64,000 nucleotides of DNA from Streptomyces drozdowiczii (GTDB lineage Bacteria; Actinomycetota; Actinomycetes; Streptomycetales; Streptomycetaceae). The first letter of the stretch is position 1. Each line of letters begins with the position of its first letter. The stretch is from assembly GCF_026167665.1 (NCBI RefSeq), contig NZ_CP098740.1, forward strand, positions 6,696,001-6,760,000. The letters are read 5' to 3'. Below, in pieces: positions 6,417-21,071 of this stretch. The notes beneath the pieces are model-generated. The model saw nothing but the letters and a program-made list of their open reading frames with translations, was not told the DNA's origin and ran no database searches. The position numbers were made by a program, and so were the translations under genes.

Positions 6417-7517
6417 TTACCAGGTGGTGGGGCGTACGACTTCGGTGACGGGCTGGGGGTGCACGGCCTCGGGAATGCCGAGCGCGGCGCGGCCCCGGTG
6501 GGCGGCCGCAAGCTGCTCGGCCGCCTCGGACGGCCCCCAGTCGAAGAACTCGAGGGCCTGCTCCGGGGTCGCCAGGATGCGTACGTACGTCTGACCGGTG
6601 GCCGGATCGGCGGCGGCCTCGCCCAGGCTCGCCAGCACGGCGGCGTAACGGACCCTCGCGCACGGGCCGGAGGCGTCGGACAGATACCCGAGGTAGCGGG
6701 TCTTGCCGAGTTCGGCGGCGGCCTCCTCGCGGCATTCCCGGACGGCGGTCGCCAGGGGGTCGCCGCCGTCCTCCGGTTCCGTCGTGCCGCCGGGCAGGCA
6801 GGGCGCGCCGGTGTCCGGTTCGAGGAGCAGGAGGACCCGCCCGTCCGGGGCGAAGGCCCAGACCCAGGACTGCCGGACCGTGAGCCCGGCGGGCACGGGC
6901 CCGGCGTGGAACGGCAGGTGATGACGGGCCCGGGCGGTACGCAGGACGCCGACCCGGTCGAGGACCGTGGGGGCGATCGGGAGGCCGTCCTCCAGGAGCA
7001 CGGGACCGGCGCCGTTGATGCGGGCGCGGAGCGCGGAGAGGACGCGGCGGGCGTCGCCGGGAGACATCAGCGAGGGAAGGGCGGCCGGTTCCGCGAACTC
7101 GATGCCCTCGATCTCGCCCGGGGCGGGCCGGACGGCCGCGATCCGGTCGTCGCCCCAGACGCCCCCGTCGAAGACGTGCAGCAGCTCGCCCGGGAACCGC
7201 AGCGCCGGGGGCGCCGCCCGGCCGACGGGGGAGACCCAGTCGACGGCCAGCCCGCGGGTGACGGTCGCCGCGACGCCCAGCTCCTCCTCCAGCTCGCGGG
7301 CGGCGCCCCGGGCCGGTGACTCGCCCTTGTCGACGGCTCCGCCGGGCAGCAGGCAGGTCGGCCGGTAGGGGACGCGCTGGAGCAGGACCCGACCGCGCCG
7401 GTCGGTGATCAGCACACTGGTCCCGGCCCACAGCGCGGCCGAGGCGCGCAGGGCCCCGTACGCCTCGTCTTTCATCTCCACGCCGGGAATGTCGTCGGGT
7501 GCGGATGCGGTGGTCAT
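6417..7517 (-). CDS. Tandem-Nudix hydrolase; promoter-distal gene of the split Nudix operon
   Basis: 366 residues from ATG 7517, chosen because GGAGAAAG lies just upstream. Two Nudix domains: the first has GGAVDKGESP...RELEEELGV, a textbook box; the second has GGTTEPEDGGD...RECREEAAAEL, with an insertion before the REXXEE core. Each would hydrolyse a nucleoside-diphosphate-linked compound. If the 9.8-kb element is removed, this gene lies 29 bp downstream of the methyltransferase stop, so it was the last gene of that operon. It now lacks an obvious promoter of its own: the element starts 78 bp upstream. Confidence 0.85.
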   Translation of the reverse strand: MTTASAPDDIPGVEMKDEAYGALRASAALWAGTSVLITDRRGRVLLQRVPYRPTCLLPGGAVDKGESPARGAARELEEELGVAATVTRGLAVDWVSPVGRAAPPALRFPGELLHVFDGGVWGDDRIAAVRPAPGEIEGIEFAEPAALPSLMSPGDARRVLSALRARINGAGPVLLEDGLPIAPTVLDRVGVLRTARARHHLPFHAGPVPAGLTVRQSWVWAFAPDGRVLLLLEPDTGAPCLPGGTTEPEDGGDPLATAVRECREEAAAELGKTRYLGYLSDASGPCARVRYAAVLASLGEAAADPATGQTYVRILATPEQALEFFDWGPSEAAEQLAAAHRGRAALGIPEAVHPQPVTEVVRPTTW

Positions 7518-7589
7518 CTTTCTCCGTTCCAGGGGGACTTGGGCGGTCACGATTCTGCCGTGGCCGCCGCAACCGCGTCCGCCGCCCGC

Positions 7590-7594
7590 CGGGC
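7590..7594. repeat. Target-site duplication, left copy
   Basis: CGGGC directly abuts the left TGTGAC end. An identical CGGGC abuts the right end at 17381-17385. Five bp is the duplication length made by Tn7/Tn5053-type transposases. Confidence 0.75.
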
Positions 7595-7638
7595 TGTGAC
7601 GAGGCGTTTTAGTTGGCATAAAAGCGGGATAGTTGGCA
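7595..7638 (+). repeat. Left end of element: inverted repeat and sub-terminal repeats
   Basis: TGTGAC at 7595-7600; TAGTTGGCA at 7610-7618 and again at 7630-7638, 20 bp apart. Repeated short sites inside a TGT end are how TnsB-type transposases recognise their ends. Confidence 0.65.
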
Positions 7639-7668
7639 CTGTCTGCTGTCCAGGCGACGAAGCTTCCG

Positions 7669-8140
7669 TCAGTGGACCGGCAGACCGGTCAAGGCGCGGC
7701 CGATGACCGGACGCCGGATCTCGCCGGCGCTTTCGAAGATGGTGAAGACCTTGGAGTCGCGGTGGATGCGCCTGACGGGGTAGTCGCGCGTGTAGCCATG
7801 GCCTCTGAGGATCTGGATGGCCTCGTCGGTTACACGCACGGCCGTCCGGCTGGCGTGGAGCCCTCGGCCTGAGCAAAGGGCTTGTCCTGGCGCGCCATCC
7901 AGCCCGTTTGCCACGCCAGCATCCGAGACGCGTCGATCCGGGTCTTCATATCGGCGAGCTTGAAGACGATGGCCTGGAAGCCGCCGATCTTCCTGCCGAA
8001 CTGCTCCCGCTCGCGTGCGTAGTCCAGGGCGTGCTCGCAGGCGGCGCGGGCCATGCTGAGCGCCATCACGCCGACGGCCGGCCGCGTGGCCGCGGCCTTC
8101 ATGGGGCCGGGTGACCCGAGCGTCCAGTCGGAGGCGACTC
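7669..8140 (-). pseudogene. Acyl-CoA dehydrogenase, C-terminal fragment
   Basis: Reads TRPAVGVMALSMARAACEHA, EREQFGRKIGGFQAIVFKLA and DMKTRIDASRMLAWQTGW, then in another frame LHASRTAVRVTDEAIQILRG, HGYTRDYPVRRIHRDSKVF and the tail GRALTGLPVH. These are the C-terminal helical domain blocks of FAD-dependent acyl-CoA dehydrogenases. The N-terminal half and the catalytic base region are missing upstream of ~8140. The frame switch is at CCC 7861-7863, where one more C restores AQAEGLHASRT. So it is truly 5'-truncated, and the internal frameshift may be a read error. Lies just inside the left end of the element. Confidence 0.7.
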
Positions 8141-8219
8141 GCTGCGAAGACGCCGTACCGGTAGCGCGTCCCGGCTCAGCCCGACCTCGCTTCGGCCGGG
8201 CTCGGTCGTAAATGAGAGT

Positions 8220-9080
8220 TCACGAGGACATCCGCTGGGTCTCATACCTCGCCGACTGCGCTCTGGTCAGCTGAGCTGTCGAAGTGCCCTGCCCGAAAGA
8301 GCCGGGGGGTGCGGAGTCGCATTGCACGGCGAGGCGGACGGCGTACAGGTCGAGCCGTCTGCGGAGCTCGAGGCGTCCGGCCTTCTGGTGTGCCGGGGTG
8401 AGGAACTGGGCGATCTGGTCGGCCAGCTGCTTCCTGTCCCGTCCGCCAAGAGCCGGGGAGGTAAGAAAGGAGCAGTTGAGGTGCTCGGACTGGGTGACCT
8501 CAGCCCAGACGAGACCCGTGGCGAGGTGAGGCTCTTGCCGTGCCAGGTGCCCGAGCTTGGGGATTCCGTCGCACAGCCCGGGCCAGTCGGGCGCCGGCAT
8601 CCGCCAGGTGGCTATGGATTGACGACGTCGTGCGTAGTTGACTCGGTTGGGGTTGCTGTCGAGTTCGGCAGCGATCCGTTCGACGCCGGCTTCGAACTCC
8701 TTCCACAGCTTGCCGGGCATCGTCCGGCCGAGCACATGGAAGGTACTGACGACGCTGCCGCGTAGCGTGCCCAGTGTCTTGGCGCATTCAGCCCAGGTGC
8801 CGCCGGCGGTCATCTCCATCAACTTCAGGGACGCCGCTCGCCGCAGGTGGCGTACGGTCGAGCTGTTGACCTGCTGCATGTGTTCGATGAGGTGAGCGAG
8901 GTGGTCGTCGAACCAGGCATGCGGCAGCAGTTGAGGGACTTCCTCGGGGCTGAAGCAGCAGTCCCTCGAGGGGACTCGCAGGCGGCCGGGTCCGCGGCTG
9001 CTGCCACCGGCGTGGAAGATCTGGCGCCGCCTGACGAGGGAGCGGGCCAGGGGCGCGGATATCTCCGCGTCTCGGAGCAT
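8220..9080 (-). pseudogene. TniQ-family C-terminal fragment
   Basis: From about 9080 the protein shows the pattern of TniQ transposition target-selection proteins: HAWFDDHLAHLIEHM, RHLRRAASLKLMEMTAGGTW followed by AECAKTLG, then RVNYARRRQSIATW and VWAEVTQSEHLNCSF. These correspond to the repeated helix-turn-helix-like blocks of the C-terminal half. The N-terminal zinc-finger half is absent: upstream the DNA belongs to the oppositely oriented ATPase fragment. TniQ/TnsD proteins direct Tn7-like and Tn5053-like transposons to targets, which fits the element's ends. Assignment is from remembered family pattern. Confidence 0.6.
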
Positions 9081-9089
9081 CGCGTAGGC

Positions 9090-9641
9090 GCGTTTCGGAG
9101 CACGTTCATAGGCCGTCTGTACGTGCTGGGCACCACCGAGGACGTCCAGGCCTTCCGTAACCTCTTCGACAGTGATCTGTCGATGTTCGGGCTGCTCACC
9201 ACCCTGCTCGACGCCGGATACCTGACCGTCGACGTCCGCCTGCACAAGATCGGCGCCGTGATGCTCGGCCTGGACGACCTGAGTTCCGGAGAGCAGCAAC
9301 TCCTGACCATTTTGGGCCTTCTGCGGCTCCAGCGCGCACAGGAGTCGCTCTTCCTCCCGGACGAGCCCGACTCACACTTCCACCCCGAATGGAGCCGGCG
9401 CTGGTACAGCTCTGTGCGCGCCGTACTCGGGGCACATCAGGACTCGCAGTTCATCACGGCCACCCACGAACCCCTGCTGGTATCCAACATGACCCGCCAG
9501 CAGATCCGGATCATCGCCACCGATCAGGAAGGCCAGGCCACAGCAGTAACTCCCGAGGCCACCCCGCGGGGACAGGGCGTCGGCGGTCTGCTGACCACCG
9601 ATCTGTTCGGGCTGCCCGGCCAACCCGACGAACCCACCTAG
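9090..9641 (+). pseudogene. AAA/ABC-type ATPase of a defence pair, C-terminal half
   Basis: Only the distal half is left. LSSGEQQLL is the ABC signature; LFLPDEPDSHFHPEW is Walker B with the D-loop; ITATHEPLLVSNM is the switch region. This is the layout of PtuA/RecF-like ATPases that pair with HNH nucleases in Septu-like and related restriction-associated systems. The Walker A half is missing; upstream lies the opposite-strand TniQ fragment, so the gene was probably cut by rearrangement. Followed 3 bp later by a small gene and then the HNH gene. Not functional as read. Confidence 0.65.
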
Positions 9642-9644
9642 AAG

Positions 9645-9911
9645 TTGATTGACCGCCAGTACACGCTACTGCCGGCAGCGGCCCACGACCCGGTGTGGCA
9701 GACGGAGCTCCGCGAGGTCACCGACGAACTCGACGCACTGGGCTCTTCCACCGCGAACCGTGATCCTCTCGTGATGGCCTTCCTTGCCGAACTCCACCGC
9801 AGACGCCGTGCTCTCGTCGAGGCCGTCACCAGCACGAACCCTCCGCCACCGCAGGTCCTGGAGGCCATGGTCGCCGAACTCTTCAACGAGCACTTCGCGT
9901 CGGTGATCTGA
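9645..9911 (+). CDS. Small protein between ATPase and HNH genes
   Basis: 88 residues from TTG 9645 (no better start in frame; RBS weak). Helical and charged: VWQTELREVTDELDAL, VMAFLAELHRRRRALVEAV, LEAMVAELFNEHF. No recognisable family. It is 3 bp after the ATPase stop and 15-21 bp before the HNH gene, so it looks like the middle gene of a three-gene cassette. It may be a small subunit or antitoxin-like partner; this is inference from position only. Confidence 0.5.
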   Translation: MIDRQYTLLPAAAHDPVWQTELREVTDELDALGSSTANRDPLVMAFLAELHRRRRALVEAVTSTNPPPPQVLEAMVAELFNEHFASVI

Positions 9912-9932
9912 CGCCGATGCGACACAGTGGAT

Positions 9933-11163
9933 ATGAGCGGACTCACCACCCCGCAGGCGTGGGTGGCCAAGACCAAAACCACCTTGGACGCCGTGCGGGC
10001 CGCGATGGCTAGCAACACCAAGCGCGCCTTCACGGAGCACTGGACCGATGACGAGGTACGCGACCCCCTGCTCGCACTCGTCGGACAAAAGTGCTGGTAC
10101 TGCGAGACCACAATCCAGCGCGCTGATATCACCGTCGACCACTTCCGGCCGAAGTCCGAAGTGCTCGGCGAATCAGGCCATGACGGCTACTGGTGGCTCG
10201 CCTACACGAGACAACTACCGCATCGCATGCAAGCACTGCAACAGCGGCGGAGCCCGGTTCAACGGTGCACGAGAAGGCCGTGCCAAGGGCAGCCGGTTCC
10301 CACTGCTGGCCGGGCCGCGCGCCTGGCGCCAGCACGACGACCTGAGCCTGGAACAGCCGATGCTCCTGGACCCGGCCCGAATCGGCGATCCCGACCTGCT
10401 CGGGTTCGACACCGCCGGCTACGCCCGGCGCAGCCACACCCCCTACTCCAAGGACGAGGCACACCGCGGGGTCTGCCGCGCCGACGAGACCATACGGATC
10501 CTGGCGCTTAACGCCACCCAGATCAAAGACCAACGCCTCCTCCTGATGGACGAGATCGCGGTACTCGCCCAGATACCGGGCGACCTGCCCAGCGTCCAGG
10601 CCCTGATTGCCGGGAGAACGGCGACAACAGCGCAGTGGAGCGCAGCCGCCGCCGCTGCCCTGGCTCTGCACCGTGCATGTGCTCTGACGAGGAATGAGCC
10701 CGACCAGTCCTCGGCAGAGCATCCCGGCACCCCGGTCATCGACCCGGGACGTTCGACCGTCGACGTGCGGGACCTGCTCAAGGACCTGGACCCGGCCGAC
10801 CTGACCGCTGGCATCCCACTGATCGGCCGTCACAGCAACAAGCCGCAACCGGGTGTTCTGCAAGCGGACGGCCGCATCAGCGTCTGGAAGCGTCCTTGGG
10901 GTACCCCGAACTCCGCGGCCCGGGCCGCCACTGGCAGCGATGACATCGACGGCTGGGACTTCTGGCGGCTGACCATTGCCGGTGTCGAGCAGTCGCTCGC
11001 CGAGTTCCGCGCCGACACACCCCGCCCGACCCACCCGCCTGAGCGGGTAGCCCCGCTTGATGCTCGCCTGACAGGCCTGGGGGCCGGGACGAACAGGCCA
11101 GACCAAGGACGGAGAGCCCTTCAGTGCTGGCGGCGGTGGCGGCGCGCTGGCCCATCGCGGTGA
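9933..11163 (+). pseudogene. HNH endonuclease with C-terminal RAMA domain, frameshifted
   Basis: The first part reads QKCWYCETTIQRADITVDHF then RPKSEV; after a +1/-2 shift near 10210 it continues DNYRIACKHCNSGGARF. Together these are an HNH/TIGR02646-PtuB-type nuclease core with CxxC, DHFRPKS and the second CxxC. Continuing in the same frame, from about 10760, VDVRDLLKDLDPADL, GVLQADGRISV, NSAARAATG and GWDFWRL match the RAMA domain, which reads modified DNA in restriction and methylase proteins. True domain content probably ends near 11020. Partner of the upstream ATPase. The frameshift is not the simple one-base homopolymer type, so inactivation may be real. Confidence 0.6.
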
Positions 11164-11424
11164 TGCCGCGCCGTCGGGTGACGAGGCACAGGCACGGCTA
11201 GGCGCACCATGACGAGGCTTACCGCCGGTGATTCACTCTCCGCTTTCGGACACTGCTTGTTGCCGGACGTTCCGGACTCCCGGATCTTCAGTCAGGGTTC
11301 GTGGATTGGGTGCGCTCAGAGTGCCGGACGCGGTGGTTGCGGCTGGTGTAGCGGCAGAGATCGCAGATTTGCAGATCAAAGTGGTAACTGCCGCGATAGG
11401 AGGAGGTGGTTGCGCCTGCTGATG
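11164..11424. other. Stretch with no confident gene
   Basis: Between the HNH-RAMA gene and the kinase fragment. One frame contains VVAAGVAAEIADLQIKVVTA, which looks protein-like but has no start context and matches nothing I recognise. Probably gene debris. Confidence 0.3.
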
Positions 11425-11691
11425 GGATGGTCCACCGCTATCTGAAGCCCGCGAACGTGATCCTGGCCCCGGACAGGGCGCGGGGTGCTGGACTTCGGCA
11501 TCGCCCACGTCGCCGACGGCACCGCGGTCATCCGTCCTGGCGCGCCGACCGGGACTCCGGACTGGCTGAGCCCCGAGTACCACCGGGACGCCACAGCGGG
11601 TCGCACCGAGATCTTCGCCTGGGGTGTGCTGTACGCCTTCACGGCAACCGGCTGCCACTCCTTCAGTACAGGCGTTCGTACTGGTCGGTAA
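11425..11691 (+). pseudogene. Ser/Thr protein kinase fragment
   Basis: VHRYLKPANVILAP is the catalytic loop, then in the next frame VLDFGIAHVADGT (the DFG motif), GTPDWLSPEYHRD (activation-segment end) and EIFAWGVLYAFTATG. These are the order and spacing of PknB-type kinases. Both the N-lobe and the tail are missing, the frame shifts after ILAPDRAR, and the catalytic HRD Asp reads as Tyr (HRY). A dead remnant. Confidence 0.65.
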
Positions 11692-11798
11692 GGCGATGAC
11701 TCCTAGCCGACCACCGTGCTTCGGGTTGTGCGTCCGAAAGCCAGTGGTCACCCCTATCGTCGGGAGGAGTAGTTGTCAGAAGGCTTCCGGGGGCAAGA

Positions 11799-14700
11799 GT
11801 GACCGACGGACAGAAGCGAGCAGGGCGGTCCACGGGTCGCGTCGGTTCGGCCAGGCGCAAGCGGGTCGTAGCGACGGCGGTCATGGAGGCCGAGGGGTGT
11901 CTCGCCGACCTGAAGCGCGGGCGTCGTGCCGCTCGCGAACTCAAAGAAGTCACCGAACAGATGCTCTCGCCTGAGTACGAGGGGCGCGTGCTGGTCGAAC
12001 TCCTTCAGAACGCCCACGACGCGCACCGCGCCCGGCACGGCGATGGCCGCGTAGAGATTGTCCTAGACGAGGACGAGGGCGAACACGGCGTCCTCTACGT
12101 GGCGAATGGCGGAAGGCCTCTCGGGTACAAGAACTTCGAGGCGTTGTGCAGCATCGGCCTGTCGAGCAAGCGACCCGACGAAGGTATCGGCCACAAGGGG
12201 GTCGGCTTCAAGAGCGTGCTTCAGCTCACCTCCGCCCCAGAGATGTACAGCGTCACGAGTTCCGCGTCCAAGGCTTTCGACGGGTTCTGCTTCCGCTTCG
12301 CTCAGGACGACGACTTCGGCTGGTTGGCGGACCATGTCGTGCCCGGCCACCCGGAGGCTGCCGACCAACTGCGCGCGAACCTGTCATCGTTGAAGGTTCC
12401 AGTGCCGGTGGACGACGTCCCGGCTGCGGTGGCTCCCTTCCGCCGACGGGGAATGGTGACAGTGGTCCGGCTCCCGCTGCGGTCCGCCGAGGCCAGGCTG
12501 GAAGCGGTACGCCAGCTGCGGGAACTGACCGATGACGGGGCGCCGTTCGAACTCTTCCTGGACCGCCTCGGGAAAGTGACCGTCACGCACCGGGCGGGCG
12601 GCCGGGGGCGCCCCAGCGTCTACACACGCAAGGTGGACACCCTCTTCATCTCTCGTGATCTGAAGATCCAGCAGATCACACTGCGCCGTCGCACCCGCCT
12701 GATCATGGTGACGGCCGCAGTGGACAGCGAGCGCGCACGCGAAGCCATCGCCGCCGGTCTGGGATCCGGACCGCTGAAGGACGGCTGGCAGGCACTGGGA
12801 AACTCGGCTGTGGTCAGCGTGGCGGTACCCGCGGGCGACCCTCTGGAGCGCGGCAGGCTCTACACGTTCCTGCCCATGGGGACAAAACAGATCTGCCCGG
12901 TGCGCGGGTTCGTCAACGCGCCATTCCACACGGACGTGAGCCGACGCACCGTGATGGAGTCCACGCAATGGAATGACCTGCTGCTCGACACCGCGGCCGA
13001 GGCCTGCGCACGGACGACCGCATTGGTCGACGAAGGACGCGTCATGCTGCCCGCAGGCACCCTCATCGACCTGATGTGCTGGGAACACGACCAGGTTCGG
13101 CGCCTGGAGCTGGCCTTCAAAGCACAGGACCGTGAGTTCGACGCCGTTCCGTTCATGCCGGTACTGCACCCTGCGGGCACCCGCACCGCGTACCGCTGCG
13201 GCTACTTGTGGCGCGGCCCCGACCAGGCTCGCGTGTTGACACCGCAGGCCGTGGCTGCCGCTGGGGTCAAGCACGTCATTGACCCACAACTCCATCCCCG
13301 GCGCGCCGAGCGGCTGGCGGCGCTGGGTACGGCCCGTGGACTGGGTCTCAACCCGCCTGTCAGAGTGCTCGCCGACTGGGCGGAGAGCGTAGCCTCGGCC
13401 CTCGCCCAGGGGGAGTTCGACGCCGGAATGTGGGCGGACTACTACCACGACCTCTCGGTCTGCTTCGCTCGCACTGGCGAGGAACTGAAGGGGAGGAAAG
13501 TCGTCCTCACGGTCGACGGGAAGCGGGCGCCGGCCGGCGATCCCGGGTTGTTCTTCCGCCCGGATGGCCCGTCGGCCGCGCTGCCCGCCCTGCCACCTGG
13601 ACTCGCGAAGAGAATCTTTTTCGTCCACACGGAGATCGCTTGGGCGGGACGGAAGACCAGCCGGCGCTCCCGCGGTCGTACCTGGCTGGAGGAACAGGGG
13701 CTGGTACGGGACTACAGCCCGAAAGCCCTGCTGGAAGTGCTGGGCGACGCCATGCGCAAGGTCCGTGAGGACGACGAGGCTCTGCGCGAGCACCTCTTGT
13801 TCGCCTGCGCCCTGTGGGCGTCCTCAGTGGACCGGCACGGCAAGCGGCCTGTGATCAAGGGGCTGTTGGTGCCGGGCCGCAAGACCTGGGTGCCCGTTAC
13901 GGAGGCCATGTTTGGAGATGGTTGGACAGGCGGGCACGGCGGGATCGACCGGGCACTGGTCCGCTTTTTCGACCGTACCGAAGCTGTCTCCCGTGACCTT
14001 GTCGCCGCCGCCGATCGGCTTGTCCGCCCCGCCCACGACATCTGCGCCGGCACCCGCACCGACGCGCAGACTCTGCGGCGCTTCCTCGAACACCAGGGTG
14101 TCCGGCACGGCCTGCTACCGACCTACGTGGCAACGTCCCAGGCGGTGAAGGGGCAGCATCTCAACCGTCCGTCCAGCTTTCCCGGACTGTGGGCCCTGAA
14201 CCTGGACCCGGATGAGCGGACCCAATGGCAGTCGACGGCCCAGCGCTGGCCCAAGCGCCGCGACGATCTCTACCTGACCGTCGAGTACCGCCCGACCCGC
14301 AAGAGGGTGGCCGTTCTTCCCGGCCAGCGGGAATACGCCGCGTTCGACGAGGAGAGTCGTCGGCTCTACGCCGAACTGATTGTCCACGGCCTGGACATCT
14401 GGGACGCCGAGGCACTCGAGTTCCGCTTCGCGGGCGGCTCGGATCAGAAGGGCACACTGTGGCCCACCCCGCTGGCGGCCTTCCTGTTCCGAGTCCCGTG
14501 GATTCCCCAGACGGGTGACGACGAAGACACTCCCGCTTTCACCACGGCCAGCCAGGCGTGGTGGTGGGCCTCGGGGGAGGCGCCACCCGCCTTCCTCACC
14601 GTCGCCTCCGCCGCGCTGCGCAGACGGCAGTCGGACCGCGTGCTCAAACGCCTGGAGCTGCTCGGCGTACGCCGCTGGGACGATCCCGAGACCGCCGCGG

Positions 14701-17098
14701 ACCGGCTCCGCCACCTGCCCGCCCTACTCCGCCGTGTGCCCCAGCTACGGCAGGGACGCCTTGGGCATCTGCTGCGGCGGGCCTACGAACAGGCCTGGGC
14801 GGACCTCCTTCCTCCGGACGGGTTCGGCGGCGGGTGGCGGTCCGGGGTCCTCCCTGAACTCCTTGTGAGCAGGGCCGGGACACTGGGAGTGCTGGCAGCT
14901 GATTCTGAGCCGGAGCCGGTCTACGTGGCCGACATCCGCGGCACCCAGCAGCGGAGGCTGCTCGACGAGGCACCCCTGCTGCTCCTGCCGGTCGACGACA
15001 GAGCTCTGGGCCAGCGCATTCACGCGCACTTGGAGGCACAGGGCCGTTTCGTGATCCGGCCGACGAGCGAGGCGGAACTCGACGTGTGGGTCGACCAGCT
15101 GCCGATCGCCGACGCACCCCGAGTACCGCTGTTTGCCCTGGCCGGGCCCTGGCTGGAGGCCCTCATGGTCGCGCTGGTCGAGTTCGACGAGGAGCGGTCC
15201 TCCCGCGCCACGGTCCCCGTGGCGCGCCGCGTCAGGCAACGGCTTCAATCCTGTGGCGTCGTCATGGCGCGGACCGCGGTCACCCATATCGCCGGGCACG
15301 CCCTCGACGCCTCCGGCGATGACCGCTCCCTCCTCCACGACGATCCGGACGAACCCCGGCTCGTCGTGGTGTGCGCAGGGCAGCGCTCCGGCTGGCATGT
15401 GCTGGAGGTAGCCGCGACCGCCCTGAGTACCCTGATCGGCGCCCCCTATCTGAGCACGGCGGTACAGCTGGCGTTCATCGCACTGAACCGGCTGGACCGG
15501 ACCGTCGCGGACGTCACCGAGGCGGACATTGCCTCCGTGCTCGCCATCCCGCAACAGCGCCTGGAGGCGGTGCTCGCCGACCGTGCCTCGATCCGCTCCG
15601 GCAGCGCCCGACTCGTCCCCCTTCTCGCCTGCGTTGACCTCGCCCTCGCCGAGGAACTACAACGCGGACAGGAGACCTTGCACGATCGCGGCGAACTCCA
15701 CGACTGGCTGGTCGCCCGGCTCGATGCCGACCGCACCGACCAGTTGCTGGGACTCGTGGAGGAGGCCGACTGGCAGCGGATGCTGTCCGCACTGGGAGTG
15801 CCCCTGGCCGAGGCTAACCAGGCTTGGCAGACACTGGGTCTGCTGACCGTCGACAACGCGGAGACCCACCAACGCCAGTTCCAGGCCTGGTTGCAGCTGA
15901 ACCGGGCCCGAATGGCCGACCGCGTTCGTGACGCCTACGTGGCCACGCACAAGGCGGGCGCCCCCCTCACGGAGTACGTTCGGCTGCGCTCGCTCCCCGG
16001 ACTGGAGCCGGACCCCCGGTGGGGACTCGAACACTGGGACCTTCCTGCTGACCTCCTCGACGTCCACGCCGAGGAATGGACGGTCACGCACCTGCCCCCG
16101 ACACCGGCCCGGCAGCACCGCCCGCGCACGGTGGCCGAGATCCACGAGGACTGCGTCGACACCATCCACGCGCGCCTTCCCCGCCTGCGTGTCCGCATCG
16201 AAGCCTGGCTGAACCGCCAGGGCCGTGAGATCCCCTCCCTGCCGTCGGCCACCGAGGTCGCGTCGGCGATGGACGCCGAGGGCCTGCTCGACTTCGAGCC
16301 GATCGGTACCCGCACGCTCATCGCCTGGCTCCAGACCCGCAGTCACTGGCCCGCGGACATGCCCGCCACGGACCGGGCGGCCGACCTCGGTCTGCGCGAA
16401 CCCGCGCCCCTACCGCCGAGCCCGCCCGTCGGTAGTGCCTCGCTCCCTGCCGCGCCGTCGGGCCCGTCACTTCTCCTGAACGGCCGTGCCCTTCCGATCA
16501 GCCCCGACCACCTGCGCGACCTTGCCCGACAGGTCGCCGCCGACCTCACCCCCGACCAACTCGCTGCCTCCCCACAGCCCGGGACACCGTCGGCGCCCGC
16601 CCTCCCGAGACAACGAACCACCTCCGCGGTCGCCGGTCGTGGCGGGGGATACCAGGCCGTCCCCGGGACCCCCAGAGGGACAGGGCCGTCGGACTCGCCG
16701 GAGAGGTGGCCGTGGCCGCCTGGCTGGAGCGGCAGTACGGCGTCCCCCGCGAAGAATCCTGGAAGTCCGGGCTACGCCAGCATGTCCTCGCCGACGGCTC
16801 GGGCGACGACAGCCTCGGCTACGACTTCCTGATCCACGACGGCGATCGCACCCTCCTGTACGAGGTGAAGGCCTCGACCGGGGACCGGGGCGAGTTCGAA
16901 CTCGGCGAGTCCGAAGTCGAACGAGCCAGTCACCTACGCCCGGACGAGACCTACACCATCGTCTACGTCACCCACGTCCTGGACAACGCCCACCGACGCA
17001 TAACGCCCCTCCCTAACCCGTTCAGCGCTCCCGGCCTCGCCGGCTACCGCCTCGTCGGCACGGCCATGCGTCTGAGGTTCGAACTACCGCCGGGGTGA
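11799..17098 (+). CDS. Giant sacsin-type GHKL ATPase with NO VEIN C-terminal (DUF3883) domain
   Basis: About 1,765 residues once one frame break is bridged. The N-terminus is a GHKL/HSP90-like ATPase: VLVELLQNAHDAH supplies the N-box Glu/Asn/Asp, YVANGGRPLGYKNFEALCSI the next box and GIGHKGVGFKSVLQL the glycine lid. The long middle has no recognisable domain. The C-terminus (LGYDFLIHDGDRTLLYEVKA, then EFELGESEVERASH) is DUF3883/NOV_C, with a PD-(D/E)xK-like D...E-K arrangement. The frame breaks at CCCC 16661-16664; one more C joins QAVP to RDPQRDRAVGLAGE. This domain pair is seen in bacterial defence-island proteins; the mechanism is unproven. GTG start 11799, RBS CCGGGGGC. Confidence 0.75.
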
Positions 17099-17281
17099 CC
17101 GGAACCTTCCCCGTAGCAAACGAGGTCGAACTGTGCCCATGCCAGCACATGCCTGTCGACAACGGGTAGGGACCGCGAGCCTTGAGAGCTGCCAGCCCGC
17201 TCGCGATTCCAGACCCTGTCTGGAGAAGGCTTTTGGCCTCGCTATGGCGACAAGCGCCTCATAACCTGTGCTGTACCAAAG

Positions 17282-17380
17282 TGTCAACTATTTCGCTGAT
17301 TCTGCGACTCCGACTGAAGCTACTTGGCATCAGTGCAGGTCGTGAACGTGGCCTGGTGTCAACTAGCGAGCCCGGTCACA
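17282..17380 (-). repeat. Right end of element: inverted repeat and sub-terminal repeats
   Basis: Inverted TGTGAC at 17375-17380 and inverted TAGTTGACA at 17357-17365, at the same nine-base spacing as the left end; another inverted TAGTTGACA at 17282-17290. The 260 bp from 17099 to here have no gene. The outer repeat now encodes the last residues (VTGLAS) and stop of the host methyltransferase. Confidence 0.65.
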
Positions 17381-19713
17381 CGGGCCGGGCCCGGCAGGTG
17401 TCCGTTCCGGCCCGGCCACCGGAACACCAGCCGGGAGGACGCCTTGTCCAGGACGTCCCCGGCCGGCAGCAGATGGTCCGGGGTGCCCGCCGGGTGGACG
17501 GTCAGGACGAGATCGGCGTGCCGGTCGTCGTCGGCGGTGCGGATGTGGCGGTCCCACGCCCGTACCGTCGCCGCGACCAGCTCGGCCAGCCGCGCGCCCT
17601 CCGGGCCGAAGGCGTGGACCACCCACTCCCTGTCCTCGGAACGCCCACCGTGCCGGGCCGGCAGGTGGACCAGATAGGCCAGCGAGGCATCACCGAGGAC
17701 GGCCGGCGCGTCACGGCCCTCCGCCACGGCGACGACCTCCGTGTCCTCGTCGGCGCGCAGGCGGCAGAAGCCCGGCAGGGTGGTGGCCGCGTACAGCTGG
17801 AGGGAGCCGAAGTAGACGCCGGTCCCGGCCCCCATCGTGATGCCGGTGGCTACCTCGTGACGCGGCCCGCGCAGCGCCTCCTCCACCCCCTCCGCGCCGG
17901 CCGCCGCGCCCTCGTCGAAGCGCAGCGTCAGCGCGCCGCCGAGCAGCGGCACGACCGGGGTGGAGCGGGCCTGCCGGCCCTGGTCGCGGACGAAGCCGCA
18001 GTACGTGAAACGGCGGGCGTGCAGCACCTCGCCGCGCCGCTCGAACGCGACCGCCCGGCTGTAGCCGCCCATCTCCAACGGCAGGACGAGGAGCCCGCCT
18101 TCGGCCAGTTGCTCGCGCCAGGCGGGCGCGATGTCCCAGCAGCTGTACGTGATCATGCTGCCGTCGAAGCCGCCGCGCGGGACGAGGTGGGCCGGGGCGC
18201 CGAGCGCGGCGTCGGCCTCGACCGCGGTGACCCGTCCGCTGCCGGCCTCCGCGATGAAGGCGCGGGTGCGGCGTACGACCCAGGGGTCGATGTCGACGGT
18301 CACCACCCGCCCCCCGGGGCCTGCGACATGCGCGATCAGCTCGGCGTTGTAGCCACCGGACCCCGCCTCGTACACGCGCGCACCCGGCCGAAGACGCAGG
18401 CTCTCGATCATGTCGGCCTGGAGCCAGGCCGCGGACACCGAGCTGATCGCTACCCCGGTCTCGTCGCGCCGGGTGACGACGGCCCGGTCACCGCCGTCGT
18501 ACGCGGTCGCCAGATCCGCTTCCGGGGCGAACCGATGGCGCGGCACGTTCCGCAGCGCCTCGCGCACCGGTTCGGACGGGGCCCAACCGCCGGCGGTCAC
18601 CAGATCGGCCATCGCACGGCGCAGCCGGACGGCCTCGGCCGGCTCACCCGGCACGGCCGGACGATCGGCGGCGAGCGGGTAGGAGGCCACGGGCGGCAGG
18701 CCCGGAACGACCCCGGGCCACACGGCGTCCAACGCCCGGGCGGCCGGCAGGAACACTTCCCCGATACGGGACAGCGCGTGCAGGTCGGCGAACTCCCACC
18801 GGACGAACTTGTCCCGCTCCGGGTTGGCCGGTGTCCCGGACCAGGCGGTGACGCGGACGACCGCCGTGAGCCGGGGAATGCCGTGGCTGTCGTCCACCAG
18901 CATCGTGACCACGTACGCGTCCGCCGGATCGGCCACCAGGCCGGTTTCTTCGAGGAGTTCGCGGGCCGCGGCCTCGGCGAAGCCTTCCGGGCCCTGGGTC
19001 TTGCCACCGGGAAGCTCGAGCACGCCGCGGTGCGACCGGCCGAGCAGGACCCTGCCGGCGTCGTCGGTGACGACGGCGAGCGCGCCGGTCAGGGCGTGGG
19101 TCGTGGGACGGCTCTTCTCGACGGCCCGGGTGCCGACAGGGGAGGGGCCGCGCAGGATCAGGAAGGCCATCCCGTCCGCGTCCAGCCGCCGCACCGACTT
19201 CCAGCCGGCGCCGAGGAGCGCGATCTCGTCCTCGTCCAGGGCGATGCCGCGCCGCTCCTCGGGCGTGGTCCGCGCCACCGGGGTGATGACGACGAGAGCG
19301 CCGCCGTCCCGGAGCCGCCCGCCGAGAGAACGCAGGACGCGGCCCCTGTCCCTGAGGAAGGGGTACACCAGGCGCAACACGACCAGGTCGTAGCCGTCCG
19401 CGTGCAGCGGGGCCGGGTCGTCGCGCTCGATGTCCAGGCACAGCCACCGCACGCCCTCGACATCGGCGTGCTCGTCCCGCGCACGGGCGACAGCGGTGTC
19501 GGCGAAGTCGACGGCGTCCACGGTGTGGCCGAGCGACGCGAGATACGCCGCCAACTCGCCGGTGCCACAGCCCACATCGAGCGCCCGCCCGCCGCCGGTG
19601 TGTTCGGCGAGCAGTTCCCGCTCGCGCTCGCCCAGCTGCCGGAAACCCCGGCCCTCAGCGAAGTGCGCTTCCCACTGATCGCGTGTGGTGTACGTCAACG
19701 TGTCGCTCCTCAT
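17359..19713 (-). CDS. Methyltransferase-Nudix-FxLD-type methyltransferase fusion
   Basis: 784 residues, three parts. Residues ~1-210 are a class I SAM methyltransferase (ALDVGCGTGELAAYL). Residues ~225-370 are a Nudix domain (GGKTQGPEGF, RELLEETGL). From ~400 on is a PCMT-like O-methyltransferase with YEAGSGGYNAELIAH and RAVVTRRDETGVAISSVSA; its tail LTVHPAGTPDHLLPAGDVLD resembles the 'methyltransferase, FxLD system' family (TIGR04364 by memory), linked to RiPP maturation. ATG 19713 overlaps the upstream stop. The final residues (VTGLAS) come from the inserted element; the uninterrupted gene would end RRAADAVAAATAES. No FxLD precursor peptide was seen nearby. Confidence 0.8.
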   Translation of the reverse strand: MRSDTLTYTTRDQWEAHFAEGRGFRQLGERERELLAEHTGGGRALDVGCGTGELAAYLASLGHTVDAVDFADTAVARARDEHADVEGVRWLCLDIERDDPAPLHADGYDLVVLRLVYPFLRDRGRVLRSLGGRLRDGGALVVITPVARTTPEERRGIALDEDEIALLGAGWKSVRRLDADGMAFLILRGPSPVGTRAVEKSRPTTHALTGALAVVTDDAGRVLLGRSHRGVLELPGGKTQGPEGFAEAAARELLEETGLVADPADAYVVTMLVDDSHGIPRLTAVVRVTAWSGTPANPERDKFVRWEFADLHALSRIGEVFLPAARALDAVWPGVVPGLPPVASYPLAADRPAVPGEPAEAVRLRRAMADLVTAGGWAPSEPVREALRNVPRHRFAPEADLATAYDGGDRAVVTRRDETGVAISSVSAAWLQADMIESLRLRPGARVYEAGSGGYNAELIAHVAGPGGRVVTVDIDPWVVRRTRAFIAEAGSGRVTAVEADAALGAPAHLVPRGGFDGSMITYSCWDIAPAWREQLAEGGLLVLPLEMGGYSRAVAFERRGEVLHARRFTYCGFVRDQGRQARSTPVVPLLGGALTLRFDEGAAAGAEGVEEALRGPRHEVATGITMGAGTGVYFGSLQLYAATTLPGFCRLRADEDTEVVAVAEGRDAPAVLGDASLAYLVHLPARHGGRSEDREWVVHAFGPEGARLAELVAATVRAWDRHIRTADDDRHADLVLTVHPAGTPDHLLPAGDVLDKASSRLVFRWPGRNGHLPGPARVTGLAS
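17381..17385. repeat. Target-site duplication, right copy
   Basis: CGGGC directly after the right TGTGAC end, identical to 7590-7594. Confidence 0.75.
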
Positions 19714-21071
19714 GGGGTGGTGTGGTGTTCGGCGCGGAGCCGGGCCAGGGTGCGTCGGCCGCGTTCCACCAGTTCGGGGTCGCCGTGCGCGGCGCCGTAG
19801 GAGATGGCGGAGACGGAGTCCAGGGCTGCCAGGACCGCGAGTTGGATCTCCTCCTCGCGGGTGAAGGCGCGCCCATAGCCGTTCATCACGGCTGCCAGGA
19901 GGTCGGGGCGGCCGTGCCAACTGTCCGAGAGCCGGACGAAGTCCCTTATGGCCGGGCCGTCCTCGGAGCGCTCGAAGTCGATGACGTACAGCGTGCCGGC
20001 CTCCTCGTCCCAGCGCAGATTGCGCAGCTGGAAGTCGCCGTGCGTGGGGACGGTGGGCAGTGCGGCGGCGCTTTTGACCGTGGTGCGCACGAACTCCTCG
20101 TCGCCGTCCGCCAGATGGGGCCGGGCCCCGTCCAGGTGCCGCTCCAGTTTGCCCACGGGCAGGACCTTGCCACCCGGTCGGCGCGGCGCGGCGCTGTTGT
20201 GGATGGCGGCCGCGAGCCGGCCGATGCGGTGGAAGGCCTTGCGCTCCTGCTCGGGCGCCAGGGCGGCACCGTGCAGGGACCGGCCTCCCACCGCCGTGAG
20301 CACGACGGCCCGCAAGGTGTCGTCGGCGGCCACCAGCCGGGGCGCGGCCGCACCGAGGCCGGTGGCCCAGCCCCGTAACGCCGTGACCTCGCGCCGGTGG
20401 AAACGCCCGTTCTGGTGGATCTTGACGTACCAGGTGCCGCCCTCGGCGCCGTACGCCCGCCAGACGCGGCTCTCCTCCCTCGCCCAGGAGACATCGGCCC
20501 AACGGGCGATCCGCCCCACCGCCCGCTCGGCGAAGGCCCGCACCGCACCCTCCGGGGCGGCGCCGGGAATCAGCAGCAACCGGTCCGCGGACGGGTCGTA
20601 CGCGATGGGGTCACCCGGCTCCTGGAAATGCACGGCCAGGTGGGCACCCGCACGGTACGCGTCCAGGCCCGCCCGGCAGTACGCGACCATCGGCTCGGGC
20701 AGCTCGTCCAGCGCGAACCACCCCATCGCGTCGCACTTGTCCGGCTCCATGACGCACGGCGTGCCGTCCCACCGGCGCACCTCGAAGAACACCCCGATCC
20801 GCGCCCGGCCGACCGGCGGCCGGTGGTGCACCGTGACCGCCGCGCGCACGTCCGCCGGATCCACGACGAGACCGGTCTCCTCCCGCGTCTCGCGTACGAC
20901 GGCGTCGACCACGCTCTCGGTCTCCACATGGCCCGAGGGCGCGTGCCACAGGCCGCTCGCGTACCCGCCACCGGCCCGACGGGAGAGCAGCACCTCCGGC
21001 CCCCGCACTCCGTCGCGCACGGCCAGCAGGTGTGCGTCCACCGGCGCGTCGGCGCGGGTCAACGTGCCCAC
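19710..21071 (-). CDS. Nudix domain fused to aminoglycoside-phosphotransferase-like kinase
   Basis: 453 residues from GTG 21071, preceded by GGAGCTGG and lying inside the end of the upstream gene. The first ~150 residues are Nudix (APSGHVETES, RETREETGLVV). The rest is a choline/aminoglycoside kinase fold: GGTWYVKIHQ (ATP-binding Lys), PTHGDFQLRNLRW (Brenner catalytic loop HGDxxxxN) and LYVIDFERSEDGP (metal Asp). Small-molecule phosphorylation linked to a pyrophosphohydrolase is plausible; the substrate is unknown. Stop overlaps the ATG of the methyltransferase gene (ATGA). Confidence 0.8.
   Translation of the reverse strand: MGTLTRADAPVDAHLLAVRDGVRGPEVLLSRRAGGGYASGLWHAPSGHVETESVVDAVVRETREETGLVVDPADVRAAVTVHHRPPVGRARIGVFFEVRRWDGTPCVMEPDKCDAMGWFALDELPEPMVAYCRAGLDAYRAGAHLAVHFQEPGDPIAYDPSADRLLLIPGAAPEGAVRAFAERAVGRIARWADVSWAREESRVWRAYGAEGGTWYVKIHQNGRFHRREVTALRGWATGLGAAAPRLVAADDTLRAVVLTAVGGRSLHGAALAPEQERKAFHRIGRLAAAIHNSAAPRRPGGKVLPVGKLERHLDGARPHLADGDEEFVRTTVKSAAALPTVPTHGDFQLRNLRWDEEAGTLYVIDFERSEDGPAIRDFVRLSDSWHGRPDLLAAVMNGYGRAFTREEEIQLAVLAALDSVSAISYGAAHGDPELVERGRRTLARLRAEHHTTP

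Follow-up and report, generated by a model that had tools for sequence, protein, structure and literature searches.

In Tn7 of Escherichia coli, the target selector TnsD recognizes its site by binding where the coding region of glmS ends (PMC2918618), and homing to gene ends by TnsD is known (PMC11406308). Dual TniQ-TnsD elements, Tn7-like elements with tandem tniQ/tnsD genes next to tnsABC, are also known; one TniQ of the pair is described as usually longer than 400 aa and the other as substantially smaller (PMC10293859). Clade 2 of the Tn7-like elements comprises actinobacterial elements with defense cargo that are experimentally uncharacterized, and the main text of that study does not contain the word Streptomyces and mentions acyl-CoA dehydrogenases only as cargo (PMC8649781). 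The tnsB/tnsC genes described beside clustered regularly interspaced short palindromic repeat (CRISPR) loci in Streptomycetaceae, without transposon ends, are a different thing (PMC12231136). Here we analyze a 9,786-bp element within a 64,000-nucleotide stretch of Streptomyces drozdowiczii (NZ_CP098740.1, 6,696,001 to 6,760,000), hereafter the window, whose internal positions are used throughout. A first-pass annotation had described the element as a cryptic Tn7/Tn5053-like transposon. We conclude that it is probably a non-autonomous Tn7-like transposon, likely inserted by TnsA, TnsB and TnsC together with a TniQ predicted to target a methyltransferase gene.

The element belongs to a family found in other Streptomyces genomes, and comparison with described systems rests in part on these kin. 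Like Tn7, the family has a 5-bp duplication, a terminal TGTG, TAGTTG at base 16 and insertion just past a conserved gene, and the kin encode TnsA, TnsB, TnsC and a selector of TniQ/TnsD type. Unlike Tn7, the home genes encode an acyl-CoA dehydrogenase, a PotD-like protein or a methyltransferase rather than glmS, the window copy has no transposase core, and nine of ten core loci carry two long TniQs (598-712 aa). Paired tniQ genes recall the dual TniQ-TnsD elements as described in PMC10293859; the Streptomyces family differs in that both proteins are long and both are predicted to be direct selectors. An actinobacterial host, a Tn7 core and defense cargo are likewise shared with clade 2 as described in PMC8649781. 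Searches of the listings of an open-access library, supplementary tables aside, returned no report of this Streptomyces family or of attachment sites at its dehydrogenase, PotD-like and methyltransferase genes.

Element boundaries and the empty site

The element occupies positions 7595-17380, and its termini both read TGTGAC-N9-TAGTTGRCA and are inverted to each other. Its boundary features are as follows.

7590..7594, no strand: target-site duplication, left copy CGGGC, present as a single copy in the empty site (L082)
7595..7638, plus strand: left end (LE), a TGTGAC terminus and two TAGTTGGCA sites (7610-7618 and 7630-7638), predicted to bind TnsB; from the LE consensus of 42 distinct LE sequences
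17282..17380, minus strand: right end (RE), with TAGTTGACA at 17357-17365(-), an inverted TACTTGGCA at 17321-17329(+) and TAGTTGACA at 17282-17290(-); from the RE consensus of 28 distinct RE sequences
17381..17385, no strand: target-site duplication, right copy CGGGC, directly outside the RE and a perfect 5-bp match to the left copy

Reading inward from the left, CGGGC (7590-7594) is followed by TGTGACGAGGCGTTTTAGTTGGCA starting at 7595, and the second TAGTTGGCA (7630-7638) follows 20 bp further in. The right end, read on the minus strand and starting at 17380, is TGTGACCGGGCTCGCTAGTTGACA, and TACTTGGCA at 17321-17329(+) is an inverted near-copy of the repeat. The end symmetry, the spacing and the CGGGC direct repeat given by the first-pass annotation are all confirmed, as are the extra TAGTTGRCA copies that it placed just inside the ends (7630-7638 and 17282-17290(-), with the near-copy at 17321-17329). 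Across the 7.4-Mb genome (G000), TAGTTGRCA has 12 exact matches, four of which belong to the element ends, and the strict composite pattern has two, which are the element's two ends. The annotation had also proposed a comparison with known Tn7 ends, and this was favorable: TAGTTG begins at base 16 in both window ends and in the Tn7 end of an E. coli record (NZ_CP033762.1, read between pstS and intI2). The element has two characters by which Tn7-like transposons are recognized, inverted TGT ends with transposase-type site repeats inside each, and a 5-bp target duplication together with an empty site.

The empty site came from a search with the flanks. The left flank was matched in 49 of 392 genus genomes, the window's own included (E ≤ 1e-30), and 29 loci from other genomes were compared against both flanks. 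At the closest of these, L082 of genome G116 (89% identity), the left flank is continuous into the right flank with one target copy and no element, which is the unoccupied site that the annotation had suggested looking for. Right-side homology extends 96 bp in G116, with a different gene beyond. Homology to the right flank is also present at L102 and L103, where ~0.9 kb of other sequence lies between the flanks, and is absent from 26 of the 28 loci other than G116. Given the continuous single-target site in G116, the insertion broke into the final codons of a methyltransferase gene, and a NUDIX-domain gene lies beside it with its start side toward the element.

6417..7517, minus strand: NUDIX-domain gene on the outer side of the LE (Pfam PF00293, E 2.4e-24); left flank 89% identical in DNA to L082
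17386..19130, minus strand: 3′ part of an FxLD-system methyltransferase gene with its last codons interrupted (TIGR04364, 356 bits, cut-off 320); 17426-19130 is 81.5% identical in DNA to the gene interrupted by an element in Streptomyces sp. CC53

The methyltransferase open reading frame (ORF) spans 17359-20502(-), overlapped by the element's right end, and its TIGR04364 domain finishes before the insertion point. As this gene scores as a member of the FxLD-system family, the element may sit in a gene cluster of the ribosomally synthesized and post-translationally modified peptide type.

A Streptomyces family with transposase-bearing members

The composite pattern TGTGAC-N9-TAGTTGRCA was found in 53 of the 392 genus genomes, at 82 places compared with 6 for a reversed control pattern. 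A looser form occurred in 25 of 150 genus genomes; G069, G075 and G110 matched only this form and were excluded from later counts. When a stricter left-end pattern was run over 84,980 species genomes, it returned 27 loci, all in Streptomyces. The left ends form one type and the right ends another, and in each the conservation reaches past the terminal motif (42 left, 28 right and 13 other distinct sequences). Nineteen elements could be paired, with sizes from 0.2 to 168 kb, and ten of them have a target duplication of at least 4/5, seven being perfect. Two elements have two candidate ends, giving 21 tested pairings with 11 duplications of at least 4/5 (8 perfect), against an average of 1.1 when the flanks were shuffled; none of 5000 shuffles reached 11.

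Inside the window element, the TnsA, TnsB and TnsC of its kin gave no tblastn match (E ≤ 1e-5), nor did TnsB anywhere in G000 at E ≤ 1e-5 with all 35 candidates scored. In the genus-wide TnsB scan at most the best 19 candidates per genome were scored, which makes absences there weaker. A TnsB relative lies in 6 of the 19 paired elements, and none was found in the other 13, the window's included. Twelve of these 13 were searched in full by tblastn (the 65-kb copy in G285 was covered at its ends only), with no TnsA, TnsB or TnsC at E ≤ 1e-5; TniQ pieces were found among the twelve in G202 and the window. In contrast to the core-less copies, all ten core loci examined have TnsA, TnsB, TnsC and TniQ types, with one or two TniQ genes each. 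The TnsA-like protein scores above cut-off with NF033179 (TnsA_like_Actin), and its gene is immediately before TnsB. TnsB has weak Pfam matches (rve and Mu-transpos_C below cut-off) and an E value of 4e-11 to a solved TnsB (PDB 8rdu); TnsC matches AAA_22 above cut-off and TniB weakly; TniQ matches PF06527 above cut-off. Searches of PDB sequences with the kin TnsC and TniQ returned no match. Copies of the element with TnsB and TnsC, which the annotation had proposed to seek, thus exist in other Streptomyces with the same ends, and its description of a transposon without its transposase genes is supported by the ends, the empty site and the missing TnsA, TnsB and TnsC.

Several members of the family are unusual in size or arrangement. 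G108:C1:10305139-10473096 is an element of 168 kb that contains TnsB and is flanked by a perfect CTGTG duplication, and the paired copies in G068, G125, G271, G276 and G315 span 66-126 kb. At the other extreme, L043:894-1105 (G125:C29:9393-9604) is a 212-bp miniature with both ends and almost no interior, at which no target duplication was seen. The RE and LE of adjacent copies lie 5-6 bp apart at L042:11097-11104, L203:1023-1029 and L208:2750-2757, a spacing that points to tandem piling of elements. At L155 (G287) a 7-bp repeat, AAAGGTC, abuts both ends instead of a 5-bp one. L039 is a core-less 6.3-kb copy with a perfect duplication that lies between NUDIX-type genes, at neither main site of the family; its right end overlaps the end of a NUDIX-domain gene (L039:489-1085), compare the window RE overlapping the methyltransferase ORF.

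Home sites and TniQ variants

A target-site pattern emerged that goes beyond the first-pass annotation. Home sites were surveyed at the 27 named left ends, the survey being able to detect left ends only. Eighteen lie 5-9 bp past the stop codon of one acyl-CoA dehydrogenase gene, which hardly varies in its last encoded residues, and five lie 15-18 bp past a PotD-like gene. The remaining four have no gene end within 60 bp; they include L133, with only 90 bp of flank, and L119, the CC53 element that is the window's nearest kin. Thus 23 of the 27 sit at the 3′ ends of two genes, and the window copy sits beside the gene used by its nearest kin. The dehydrogenase is present at 87-100% in five of nine genomes tested (G125, G146, G115, G022 and G068), with best matches of 57% in G085 and 33% in G116; in G000 and CC53 nothing matches it at E ≤ 1e-40. 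At the dehydrogenase site of L212 (G022) a diverged end, TGTGACCACCGACGCTAGTTGTCA, lies 5 bp past the stop, and that of L213 (G068) is followed by LE-interior-like sequence, perhaps a decayed copy.

The nearest kin is an element of Streptomyces sp. CC53 (L167, G289:C36), which is 94.3% identical in DNA to window 7586-9123, a segment covering the LE and the following two features.

7669..8102, minus strand: acyl-CoA dehydrogenase fragment, a passenger pseudogene (Pfam PF00441, E 2.5e-19 on ORF 7830-8102), also inside the LE of the CC53 element
8247..9113, minus strand: TniQ fragment, the C-terminal ~270 codons of a 650-aa TniQ (tblastn with residues 363-634 of the G289a TniQ2, 93.0% over 8307-9122)

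The TniQ fragment reported in the annotation is real, since 272 aa of it align at 93% identity with a full-length TniQ; it is the C-terminal part, and it lacks a match to the Pfam TniQ model. We considered the dehydrogenase fragment as a captured copy of the home gene and dropped the idea: it is common to the CC53 element, is only 28-30% identical to the home gene over short stretches, and belongs to a different paralogue.

The CC53 element lies reversed relative to the window copy and interrupts the 3′ end of the same methyltransferase gene at a point 45 bp upstream of the window insertion. Because orientation and point differ and the window duplication is perfect, we take it that the two arrived separately. 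Contig C165 carries a second CC53 element, flanked by a perfect GCACC duplication. Its only TniQ shares 81% identity with that of the first, and its right flank holds a gene found next to the methyltransferase in G025, which suggests that this element lies at the same methyltransferase site.

TniQ type follows home site in these comparisons. In a tree of 26 TniQ rows (quick method, with Shimodaira-Hasegawa-like approximate likelihood ratio test support, SH-aLRT), the window fragment, both CC53 proteins and a TniQ of G146 form one clade (SH-aLRT 99), and the TniQ1 sequences form a separate one. Each of the six copies that bear a core and occupy the dehydrogenase site (G115, G108, G125, G271, G276 and G315) has one TniQ in the TniQ1 clade, and G068, the sole core copy at the PotD-like site, is without TniQ1. 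Together this suggests that TniQ variants choose the home site in this Streptomyces family.

Decay, competing readings and significance

The interior carries, besides the two features above, the following ones.

9120..9641, plus strand: PtuA (Septu ATPase) fragment without its N-terminal half (PADLOC PDLC00294, E 4.9e-98, profile 286-458 of 548)
9645-9911, plus strand: ORF after the PtuA fragment, continuing the ptuA frame beyond a stop codon
9927..11163, plus strand: PtuB (Septu HNH protein) in two frames, 9927-10511 and 10048-11163 (PADLOC PDLC00327, E 5e-46 for profile 4-97 and E 1.3e-103 for 99-384)
11485..11691, plus strand: small protein-kinase-like fragment (Pfam Pkinase E 0.0034, below cut-off; PADLOC PD-T4-6 E 9.5e-9)
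11799..17098, plus strand: TmtA (Tiamat, sacsin-type ATPase with NOV_C domain) in frames 11799-16832 and 16706-17098 (PADLOC PDLC03971, 1502.9 bits for profile 12-1628, E 4.5e-53 for 1652-1779)

The "defense-type genes" of the annotation are accordingly the remains of Septu (PtuA/PtuB) and Tiamat (TmtA). Compared with those systems, Septu is incomplete, with PtuA reduced to the profile segment listed and PtuB in two frames, and TmtA matches nearly the complete profile, spread over two reading frames with the last domain in the second. No cas effector genes were found among the window ORFs scanned with Pfam and PADLOC profiles. TniQ and ptuA are divergent, and both break off at ~9115-9123, without their N-terminal halves; one deletion is the simplest explanation for the loss of the TniQ N-terminal half, TnsA, TnsB, TnsC and the ptuA N-terminal half.

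We propose that TnsB would bind the TAGTTGRCA sites and that TnsA and TnsB would cut the ends, by analogy with Tn7. TniQ1 would direct insertion to the acyl-CoA dehydrogenase gene, whereas TniQ of the window type would direct it to the methyltransferase 3′ end. A single deletion, presumably after insertion, would have joined TniQ, at about codon 363, to mid-ptuA and removed the transposase genes, leaving the element stranded with its Septu and Tiamat genes decaying. We further speculate, at what we judge to be even chances, that the family homes by interchangeable guides, a conserved TniQ1 for the dehydrogenase and, for a fallback gene, a second TniQ that can be swapped; the window copy would be a stranded user of the fallback, here the 3′ end of the FxLD-type methyltransferase gene, in a genome without the primary site.

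Several observations weigh against our preferred account. The window copy is reversed relative to CC53, with its RE facing the methyltransferase 45 bp further on, where the LE faces that gene in CC53; orientation is thus not fixed at this site, a point that concerns homing and not membership of the family. Such a reversal is unusual for the family, because none of the 28 distinct right ends faces the dehydrogenase or PotD-like gene, and it takes a little from our confidence. A window-clade TniQ (65%) is also present in G146, at a locus that looks broken, and the 37 kb read there contains nothing that matches the methyltransferase. The methyltransferase site itself counts two clear insertions and one (C165) that is probable; the first CC53 element also carries TniQ1, and mismatch-tolerant patterns found no right end on contig C36 from 83,000 to the contig end. 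The CC53 TnsC is read in two frames (L167:6456-7705), so this copy may be inactive or the assembly may be in error at TnsC. No convincing duplication was seen in 9 of the 19 paired copies, and the link from selector to site is correlative. The reversal and the 45-bp offset, along with L039 and its perfect duplication away from both main sites, would suit a Tn7-like element whose landing beside the methyltransferase gene was off-target or near-random, the gene being common to CC53 by coincidence or as a local hot spot. We consider this unlikely, as two elements with 93%-identical TniQ have landed within one ~50-bp stretch, each in a genome of ~7 Mb, and the family homes to gene 3′ ends (18 and 5 of the 27 named left ends).

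A less favored but plausible order of events is that the element was already a core-less passenger when it moved, with TnsABC and TniQ of a relative acting on it in trans. The 13 of 19 paired copies without a TnsB match fit such mobilization, as do the 12 fully covered copies without TnsA, TnsB or TnsC and the core-less L039 and 212-bp copies. The TniQ fragment is, however, open for ~270 codons and lies in DNA that shares 94% identity with CC53, so its truncation looks recent, and the single deletion accounts for all three losses. Tn5053/Tn402 elements (TniA, TniB, TniQ, TniR) also have TGT ends, a 5-bp duplication and TniQ, but the kin encode a TnsA-like endonuclease immediately before TnsB in 10/10 core loci, and the end spacing, compared with the Tn7 end only, is that of Tn7. 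Because core-bearing kin encode TnsA, we regard the element as Tn7-like, keep that half of the annotation's label, and reject membership in Tn5053/Tn402 as very improbable. The idea that the repeats at the ends merely happen to flank an ordinary defense island has nothing in its favor beyond the shortness of the motif; it is contradicted by the empty site and by dozens of genomes in which both end types recur with matching duplications, and we reject it as having a negligible likelihood.

Our preferred reading is a Tn7-like transposon likely placed by a TniQ predicted to target the methyltransferase. Across the family, different TniQs go with different home genes despite closely related TnsB and TnsC. 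This pairing within one family makes target reading by TniQ/TnsD testable by a one-gene swap, and the family would provide a set of natural sites at which genes could be integrated in Streptomyces. The element also illustrates one route by which defense genes get spread and stranded in Streptomyces genomes.

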